This document shows, piece by piece, positions 5,261 through 6,990 of a stretch of 35,956 nucleotides of DNA. Source of the stretch: Prevotella sp. (GTDB lineage Bacteria > Bacteroidota > Bacteroidia > Bacteroidales > Bacteroidaceae); the NCBI GenBank assembly GCA_017478085.1, contig JAFVEE010000122.1, positions 1 to 35,956 of the forward strand, given 5' to 3'. The stretch's first letter is position 1. Every line of letters begins with the position of its first letter. Both the position numbers and the translations under genes were made by a program. Below the pieces are notes generated by a model. That model did not search any database. It was not told the DNA's origin and worked only from the letters and a program-made list of their open reading frames with translations.

Positions 5261-6913
5261 TTATTCAGATTTAGAGGTACGGGGACGAAGGTAAATGCAG
5301 TCGAGATACATCTCGCGGGCGTATTGCGAGGTCTGGCGGGCCGTGATAGAGCACTGCAGGCGCACGCTCACCTTGATGTCTTGCTGATCGTAGTTGCAGG
5401 CGGGGAAGTGGAAGGCCTCGGCCAGCACGATGGTGTCGACAAGCTCGGGCTTGTTGGTGAACTCCTTGTTGTTGCAGTTGAACACCTGTTCAGCACCCTT
5501 CTCGTCGACATAGTTCACGTAGGCCCTGAACTTGTTGGGCTTCAGGTCGGGGTCTTTCTGGTTGGCCACCGACTTGGGCAGCACAACGGCGCAGATGTCG
5601 TAAGTGCCCGAGAGGGTGTTGTTCACACGGAAGGTCACTTCCCAGTTTGACGTGCCGCTTTCGGGAACGATGTCGAGGTAGGCACCTTCCGAAATGCTGT
5701 CGGTAGCCAGTCGGCGCGTGTTGTAGGTGCAGGCGCGGTAGTTCGTGATGAGCGATGTCTGCTCGCCCTCGCTCCACAGCTCCTTGAAGTAGGTCTGCTC
5801 GGGGGTGAAGGGCCACTCCTGGGTCTTGTAGAGCACGCCGTTGCTGCACGCTACGGGCGTGGCCTGGCTGAGCACGCCGCCCTCGGCAAAGGGCTTGTAG
5901 AACACGTGGTACTCGGGCTTCAGGCGGTTGTAGGGCACGGAGATGAGCGAGTCGTCGACAGACTTCTGGTCGGTCATGTTATAGACGGCATCGCTCAGCA
6001 GGGCGTAGGTAGTCCAGTAGTGCTGCAGCGAGTCGCGCTTCAGCATCTTCTCGTCGTACTGGAAGTACTGCTCGGCCTCCTGCCAGGCCTTCTTCCAGCC
6101 GGCCTCGGTGGGAGCCACCACCCAGTAGGTAGAGTCTTCGGCAGCAATGAGGCCCAGGCGGTTCAGGAAGCGGTTGCGCTCGATGACCACCGAGTCTACA
6201 TAGACGGGCACGCCCTCGACGATGCCGCTCGACACGGAGGCGTCGGCATCGAAGTAGTCCTCATCGTAACGGCGCAGCGACTGGCCCACGACGCTGAACT
6301 CGGGCACGTCGCACAGGGTCTCGTAGAGGCTGTACTCGTAGGGCAGCGGCTGACTGATGACGTGGAGCACGCCGTTCTTGGCGTGGTTGTTGGCCTGGCT
6401 CACGGCGATGTCCTGAATGGAGCTGGCACCGATCTCCACATACTTGGAGTTGAGCAGCAGGATGGGCTTGCCGTCGGGCGTGAGCGAGGTGACGGTGCGC
6501 GAGAGGTGGTTCTTGACGAAGAACTTCTCGACCACCGAGTCGCCCTGGTTGGTCTGCACCAGCTGCAGGAGCGAGTCCTTATTGAAGGTGCCGTTCAGGG
6601 GAGCCACCACGGTGAACGACTGGCCGCTGCTGAGCAGGTCGGCATAGCTCACCGAGGTCTTCTTGTGCATACGGAACACCTTGGTCTGCTGCAGCACCTC
6701 GCGGAAGTCGCTCAGCTGCGGGTTGGCTTCAAGCTGCTCCCACAGGGTCTGGTTGCTGCCACCCGTGGCATCGGTGCCATCGTAGTGGTCGTCCCAGTCG
6801 GAGCAGGAGGTCAGCAGCCCACCCCCAACCCCTCCCCAAGTGAGGGGGGCTAAGATACCACAGACCCCAAGAAGCGATGTTCTTATTCTCTTTAATATCA
6901 TGTGTCTGTTCAT
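5261..6913 (-). CDS. FAS1-domain surface lipoprotein with C-terminal beta domain (550 aa)
   Basis: Lipobox LLTSC (Cys37) is followed by acidic SDWDDHYDG, consistent with surface export of Bacteroidetes lipoproteins. Two fasciclin-like repeats follow: about 55-200 ([39 protein letters not shown]) and about 205-370 ([23 protein letters not shown]). The last 170 residues look like an all-beta binding module. The N-terminal 40 residues closely resemble those of the unrelated SusD at 9003-10721 and include the repeat-encoded [16 protein letters not shown]. An in-frame ATG at 6901 is an alternative start. FAS1 domains mediate adhesion in other organisms. Here a glycan-binding role alongside SusCD is inferred from position. 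Confidence 0.82.
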   Translation of the reverse strand: [550 protein letters not shown]

Positions 6914-6990
6914 ATTTCTTCTCTTTATTAATTTCTAATGAATAAATCTAACCTTTCTCCCCTCCCTTGGGGAGGGGCAGGGGTGGGCCC
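6817..6990. repeat. Inverted palindromic doublet across a FAS1 lipoprotein start
   Basis: The coding arm is 6817-6850 (GCCCACCCCCAACCCCTCC and continuing). The upstream arm is 6959-6990 (CCCCTCCC-TTGG-GGAGGGG plus a G-rich tail), in opposite orientation. The start codon at 6913 is in the AT-rich spacer. The upstream arm ends 2 nt before the stop codon of the preceding gene at 6993. The whole segment aligns by eye with 10625-10800. Confidence 0.85.

Follow-up and report, generated by a model that had tools for sequence, protein, structure and literature searches.

Signal-peptide leaders appear to be exchanged between unrelated SusD and FAS1 lipoprotein genes in Prevotella, some of them within palindrome-bracketed cassettes

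Two known kinds of process bear on the locus described here: palindromic repeats that are read as coding sequence, and gene conversion. With regard to the first, in Yersinia an RU-2/YPAL element contributes to the signal peptide of YPO1552 (Delihas 2007, PMC2759123; reviewed in PMC2229807). As in the Prevotella cassettes, a small palindromic mobile repeat supplies in-frame codons of a predicted signal peptide. However, mainly single fusions are described there, YPO1552 above all, whereas the Prevotella cassette leads dozens of lipoproteins of several families and its non-repeat interior appears to be exchanged as well. REP sequences and REPINs, which are associated with RAYT transposases, are short high-copy palindromes that often occur as close inverted pairs (PMC3733652, PMC6006769). 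Like the Prevotella repeat, they are described there as lying often just past stop codons, and some are intragenic. For the Prevotella repeat, in contrast, a search for PF01797 found no cognate transposase, and the repeat pair frames a 5' UTR and a signal peptide. Rickettsia palindromic elements (RPE) are translated palindromic inserts that lie in frame in conserved proteins; they are not described there as leaders moving between genes (PMC10969869, PMC2229807). The Prevotella repeat resembles RPE in that it also occurs in frame in leucyl-tRNA synthetase (LeuS), MiaB, an Mfd-type helicase, and mannose-6-phosphate isomerase.

The second process is exemplified by Mycoplasma vlhA and Borrelia vls, where gene conversion among lipoprotein paralogues exchanges the variable mature domain between relatives. 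Non-reciprocal copying between surface-lipoprotein genes would be common to those systems and to Prevotella. In Prevotella, however, it is the leader that appears to be exchanged, and the exchange is between unrelated mature folds. Among the open-licence matches listed, none described leaders bracketed by repeats in Prevotella or an exchange of leaders between SusD and FAS1, and none combined palindromic coding repeats with gene conversion. Signal peptides are usually treated as evolving with their protein. Here they seem instead to form an exchangeable module among the surface lipoproteins of SusC/SusD-type operons.

The window, by which we mean the whole stretch of 35,956 nt that was analyzed, is contig C152 of a 3.13-Mb Prevotella sp. 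assembly that is 76.6% complete and 4.7% contaminated. Its features are listed in Table 1. The original prediction held that about 175 nt of leader sequence are closely alike in front of two genes that encode different folds, and this was confirmed. BLAST aligned the segments 6796-6992 and 10604-10803, both on the minus strand, with 82% identity over ~197 nt (E 2.2e-49), a repeat finder reported 133 nt at 80% and 46 nt at 89% in the same segments, and Pfam assigned the genes behind cassettes A and B to Fasciclin and SusD, respectively. In the alignment, the likeness is bounded on one side near the stop codon of the upstream gene and on the other by the lipobox. Nor is it confined to the palindromes. 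With most of both palindromes trimmed away, the A and B interiors aligned with a score of 89, as compared to a mean of 18.7 for dinucleotide shuffles, and none of 300 shuffles equaled it. Similarity by chance or through the palindromes alone is therefore ruled out. Six full-length copies of the cassette are present in the window's own genome (A, B, and four outside the window), three of them leading SusD genes and three FAS1 genes. A diverged third copy in the window, cassette C, also leads a SusD gene.

Table 1. Features of the window, with coordinates numbered from its first nucleotide
Feature	Coordinates	Strand	Basis or remark
Leader cassette A (FAS1-2): left repeat, A+T-rich 5' UTR, start codon, putative signal-peptide codons, right repeat	6815..6990	-	alignment
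Cassette A repeat pair	6815-6837 / 6967-6987	-	repeat-pair scan
Leader cassette B (SusD)	10623..10801	-	BLAST, alignment, repeat pair
Leader cassette C, diverged	1885..2057	-	repeat pair 1887-1904 / 2032-2053; nhmmer 49.3 bits
FAS1-2 putative signal peptide and lipobox Cys, 37 codons, 10 residues from right repeat	6803..6913	-	
SusD putative signal peptide and lipobox Cys, 37 codons, 10 residues from right repeat	10611..10721	-	
FAS1-2 lipoprotein gene, led by cassette A	5261..6913	-	Fasciclin PF02469, E 1.5e-8
SusD lipoprotein gene, led by cassette B	9003..10721	-	SusD_RagB, E 1.9e-26
SusD-like lipoprotein gene, led by cassette C; putative signal peptide MIQELKDKIGRAFRFTIYTLLPLVGGGGVGVSLSSC	238..1977	-	likely ATG at 1977; ORF open from TTG at 2010
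FAS1-1 gene, same gene row; plain leader MITKSIKSAFYSLCALCLLSALSVSC	6993..9002	-	likely ATG at 8969; start without repeats
SusC-like TonB-dependent receptor gene, upstream of cassette B; stop codon abuts left repeat	10802..14095	-	family by sequence inspection
Second SusC-like gene, between FAS1-2 and cassette-C SusD	2070..5258	-	by inspection
Related inverted-repeat element, in frame in AAA-ATPase/PDDEXK gene (32954-34609, minus)	33047..33166	.	
Element-free 60-nt counterpart in second copy of AAA-ATPase/PDDEXK gene	35392..35451	.	flanks 96% identical

Using a profile built from the six own-genome copies, we identified 49 distinct cassette-led ORFs in 18 genomes. At the examined loci, each of them has its start within the segment and stays open across the right repeat as far as a lipobox. 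The cassette typically measures about 165-182 nt. The 39 full-length copies are 156-182 nt long with the start codon 59-85 nt in, and for 34 of them the distance of the beginning from the stop codon upstream is -11 to +8 nt. In frame, the right repeat reads PL(T/P)WGGVGGG immediately ahead of the lipobox, and the lipobox Cys lies 0-51 nt past the repeat in all 49 ORFs (8-16 nt in 44). A charged n-region, a hydrophobic stretch, and a lipobox Cys are present in the 49 ORFs, which were themselves chosen for the lipobox; on this pattern, the cassette N-termini are putative lipoprotein signal peptides. Among further cases beyond the 49, the leaders L094 and L097 have the appearance of ordinary signal peptides and not of lipoprotein ones.

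Pfam was run on 48 of the 49 mature parts, L131 being a 100-aa fragment that was left out. It assigned 27 to SusD, 11 to Fasciclin, and two to SusE, with single matches to OEP, S41, FKBP, and Mfa2. In an S41 peptidase gene (L112, G184:C206), the right-repeat codons are tandemly duplicated (14 residues) before the lipobox. A 41-residue leader query had matches in 67 of 398 genomes of the genus at E values up to 0.01, including weak and some stop-containing ones, while across the order (393 genomes, 206 genera, E up to 0.001) it matched the window's own genome only. The exact pattern of the right repeat followed by TGCTC occurs at 11 loci in named genomes, nine of them labeled Prevotella or Prevotellaceae. 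L163 is the only one of the 11 that reads as a leader; the rest are repeats in other genes or have no long frame.

One possibility for these observations is that repeats inserted independently around native leaders, so that the likeness reflects the repeats themselves and a convergent signal-peptide composition. The repeats do generally hug stop codons, and in dapF (L157:1444-1676, C159) an inverted pair brackets native coding sequence of the diaminopimelate epimerase rather than foreign DNA. Furthermore, a profile search did not detect the interior in the OEP (C52), S41, and FKBP leaders, which detectably have only the repeats in common, and it found the Mfa2 leader only at E 0.012. The A and B interiors are also weakly like the plain leader of FAS1-1 (score 30, as compared to shuffle means of 17.1 and 18.0; reached by 1 and 0 of 300 shuffles). 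On the other hand, the interior of the SusD and FAS1 cassettes is itself homologous, with a tract of up to 14 sites described below. A profile of this interior found the SusE leaders L087 and L084 at E 2.8e-9 and 9e-9 (16 sequences searched), and the L095 and L076 leaders were found with a profile of the other interiors at E 1.5e-5 and 2.1e-4 (16 sequences searched). When the interiors were compared with the plain leaders of 58 orthologues, with 150 shuffles each, B (SusD) stood out against one and A (FAS1) against none. Independent insertion is thus refuted for SusD and FAS1 by the interior homology, and as an account of the cassettes as a whole it is improbable.

The repeat is missing in all of the 29 closest non-self SusD orthologue loci that we read (63-80% identity; from the best 30 of the places in 119 SusD-bearing genomes). 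Twenty-eight of them have a short ATG-started leader, and in L171 the stretch examined shows no obvious start. Of the 29 non-self FAS1 orthologue loci, four (L216, L219, L223, and L226) were unreadable by motif, and the repeat is missing in 24 of the other 25. The exception is L207 (G071), which has a G-run partly matching the right repeat. All of the genomes compared here and below are assemblies, many of them incomplete.

Comparison of two species pairs indicates that, after the species diverged, leaders switched from one to the other of the SusD and FAS1 genes. G308 and G053 have a common SusD-FAS1a-FAS1b locus, the mature parts of which are 96-99% identical in nucleotide sequence. The mature part of FAS1a is 98.9% identical between the two, yet the leaders differ. 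In G308, all 14 consecutive informative sites of the FAS1a leader between alignment columns 93 and 189 are of the SusD type (five columns at the ragged start uncounted), and this tract is flanked by FAS1a-type sites at columns 81 and 229. Beyond the tract, the SusD type also occurs at column 47, which lies just outside the left repeat. The mature SusD and FAS1 proteins of G308 are 16% identical in global alignment. On this alignment, either the G308 or the G053 lineage changed its FAS1a leader; the comparison does not say which. In the second pair, the FAS1 orthologues of G035 and G166 are 76% identical at the amino acid level and their leaders differ (score 22). The G035 FAS1 leader resembles the SusD1 leader of its own genome (score 90), and the G166 FAS1 leader resembles the SusD2 leader and other FAS1 leaders of its own genome (117; 116 with the G166 copy).

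A tree of the interiors, from which 10 of the 49 cassette ORFs with <150 nt matched were left out, placed SusD and FAS1 cassettes as sisters in G166 and in G184 (starred support) and grouped them together in G324 (with G355) and in G053/G308. Many same-gene orthologues of sister species retain their leader in the same tree. Permutation of the locus labels within genomes gave 299 of 5,000 with a lax identity measure, and same-locus clustering of the repeat cassettes is therefore weak as a general rule.

Could the cassettes have been inherited vertically, following duplication of whole operons or genes and with no exchange of leaders? Rows of SusC/SusD/FAS1 genes are indeed repeated, and at several orthologous genes sister species have leaders in common. 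Against this, leaders match where the mature SusD and FAS1 parts are unrelated, and orthologues differ in leader. Operon duplication without exchange is refuted by the G308/G053 and G035/G166 switches, and we find it hardly credible. Together with the interior homology, these switches support the earlier proposal that a segment of 5' UTR plus signal peptide was duplicated or converted between unrelated lipoproteins. The expectation that leaders swap apart from mature domains was borne out in these two pairs, whereas several other orthologues keep their own leader; swapping is therefore occasional.

The cassette palindromes are half-sites of a C-rich, genome-wide repeat with the consensus CCCACCCCCNNCCCCTCCC. 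The window's own genome has 90 exact half-site matches and none to the reversed control pattern. In the stretches examined, 79 distinct exact half-sites were counted, and for 65 of them an inverted partner facing outward lies within 520 nt (within 260 nt for 64); of the 14 partnerless half-sites, four are near the end of the examined stretch. Outside the window, 18 of the 19 repeat pairs among the matches listed span 93-227 nt and the remaining one spans 495 nt. Over 36 distinct pairs, 28 distances between a pair end and the neighboring stop codon were measurable, and 16 of these are 0-7 nt. Seven of those 16 are leader copies. Repeat pairs are also present elsewhere without any leader.

As a short palindrome in high copy with close inverted pairing, the repeat pair is REPIN-like in anatomy, judged from its sequence. 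It could not be assigned to the RAYT-driven REPINs, because the sole PF01797 match in this 76.6% complete genome is a Y1 transposase gene that sits with a different palindrome, of the GCCCTGAAAGGGC type. The search, which was for PF01797 only, found no autonomous transposon for the repeat family. The Y1 (TnpA-like) transposase itself has 151 aa (L145:2943-3398, C148), with the palindrome family GCCCTGAAAGGGC, CATAGCCCAGGGC on both of its flanks (2724-3513).

Given this anatomy, the leader might be the cargo of a non-autonomous mobile element, REPIN-like or MITE-like, whose arms and interior transpose together and replace the old leader. The arms are inverted, and those of cassette A (25 nt, 88% complementary) have the form of MITE terminal inverted repeats. 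The near-constant length of the 39 full-length copies, the many leader-query matches in single genomes (17 in G184, 11 in G053, and 10 each in G166 and G372, weak ones included), the occurrence of the same repeat pair without a leader, and a related element whose site is missing 60 nt of the element-free copy are likewise consistent with an element of this kind. However, the G308/G053 tract comprises the interior only, with neither arms nor flanks, and the pair in dapF holds native coding sequence. No target duplication is visible at 33047-33166 or at leuS, where the junction is ambiguous, and the one Y1 transposase that turned up has another palindrome family on its flanks. We therefore regard such an element as unlikely. 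The original description of the leader as a mobile module likewise calls for caution, since the repeat family also occurs leaderless and the OEP, S41, and FKBP leaders detectably share the repeats and not the interior.

The related element in the AAA-ATPase/PDDEXK gene (Table 1) takes the place of 60 nt (20 codons) of the element-free copy that have no counterpart beside it, and no target duplication is visible. If the element-free state is the older one, 60 nt of target were lost. Another element lies in frame in a variable loop of leucyl-tRNA synthetase (leuS, L142:2457-2549, C51). It is missing from all 12 relatives, of 18 loci, in which the loop was readable, and its junction is ambiguous as to target duplication, none being visible. 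The loop of G004 (L242) is also occupied, by a different insert that is A+T-rich. Further in-frame pairs were found in the conserved genes for MiaB, mannose-6-phosphate isomerase (ManA), and an Mfd-type helicase, for MiaB and ManA by alignment. These elements are RPE-like, being in-frame insertions in conserved protein genes that stay open in translation. Repeat-encoded stretches such as GGVGGG and PSPREGE can be in-frame parts of conserved proteins and not annotation errors.

Bacteroidales are known for invertible promoters, and the cassette arms are inverted repeats. It could be speculated that the arms are recombination sites at which a phase-variable leader flips, turning the gene start on and off. 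This is very improbable. The interior matches are in the sense orientation relative to the following signal-peptide ORF in 54 of 54 cases and inverted in none, on which ground we rejected inversion, although the loci were mostly fetched with a leader query and inverted ones are possibly under-sampled. A promoter-like motif (consensus TAnnTTTG) occurs in none of 38 cassettes, and the same arms are found around DNA that is not a leader.

Folded as single strands, the cassettes are predicted to pair their arms in a long stem around the start codon, with energies of -81 and -91 kcal/mol (z -4.7 and -5.9). Own arm pairs gave -61.6 kcal/mol and swapped pairs -60.7 (262 of 5,000), so that, strong as the single-sequence folds are, there is no clear evidence of selection on the long stem. 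Regulation of translation by the paired arms is no more than a possibility. Third codon positions account for 279 of 628 differences, as compared to 209 if a third were expected there (38 overlapping pairs), an excess that hints at constraint on the encoded peptide.

A more far-reaching reading is that bacteria have here a counterpart of exon shuffling. A self-sufficient cassette with the start codon and export signal, bracketed by palindromes, would be copied between unrelated genes, the arms would serve as boundaries for landing and conversion, and arms paired in the mRNA would form a long stem with the start codon in its loop. We hold this reading as doubtful; if it were true, one moving unit would set the export and translation of many outer-membrane lipoproteins.

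Leader exchange appears to reach beyond the repeat-bracketed leaders, as SusD and FAS1 leaders are more alike within genomes even where the repeat pair is missing. In 19 genomes with SusD and FAS1 orthologues that have no repeat pair, one of which (G071) has the partial right-repeat G-run, the 105 nt before the lipobox gave a SusD-FAS1 leader score of 39.0 within genomes and 20.1 between them. None of 20,000 permutations reached this. No within-genome effect was seen in six control windows, of which four lie in the mature genes and two upstream of them in the neighboring genes (1089-6586 of 10,000). Removal of the five strongest genomes reduced the effect to 557 of 10,000. Individually, 14 of the 19 genomes are unusual (4 or fewer of 400 shuffles). 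Between-genome leader pairs are also unusual in 59 of 342 cases at a comparable threshold (2 or fewer of 200 shuffles), and old sharing therefore contributes to the likeness.

The extreme case is G186, where the SusD and FAS1 leaders are identical at 96 of 105 positions. These two leaders (L184, L228) have a common signal peptide, FRKGFFTLHSSLFTSLLLAAMT, whose basis is a dispersed CACTNTTCACTNTTCACT repeat; in G001 the loci considered are L186 and L229. Matches to CACTNTTCACTNTTCACT and to its reversed control numbered 53 and 10 in G186, 68 and 16 in G001, and 36 and 69 in G128. By eye, other orthologue leaders seem to be built on other simple repeats (VIGYCLLVIG, YALSI), so it may be common for signal peptides to be seeded by repeats.

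The most likely explanation is that leaders are exchanged by short-tract gene conversion in SusC/SusD/FAS1 operons and that the repeat-bracketed leaders are its most conspicuous form; we think this probable. From the interior homology, the switches, the tract, the absence of the repeat in orthologues, and the within-genome likeness, all of which come from sequence comparison, we infer the following recombination mechanism, order of events, and role of the repeats. Neighboring lipoprotein genes of these operons would bear short, functionally interchangeable leaders. Gene conversion over short tracts, or template switching, could replace one leader with a copy of another, mostly between neighbors in an operon and less often across loci. 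Selection would tolerate the copying because any working lipoprotein leader should do, and over time the leaders would grow alike. The repeats would have arrived separately in some lineages, after stop codons and at the glycine-tolerant end of the signal peptide. The bracketed leader would then have been copied with its repeats or internally, also onto SusE and perhaps onto other lipoproteins.

The switches are direct evidence of leader exchange between unrelated folds, with signs of the same where there are no palindromic repeats. Similarity of leaders is then no evidence of gene kinship, and recombination between leader and mature domain in bacteria becomes testable by strain comparison.

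Elsewhere in the window, a unit of ~106 nt is repeated four times in tandem (26152-26586) between the end of a plus-strand gene and a minus-strand gene, and a tandem 10-nt repeat (AGTCCCAACC) lies within an open reading frame (21261-21356).
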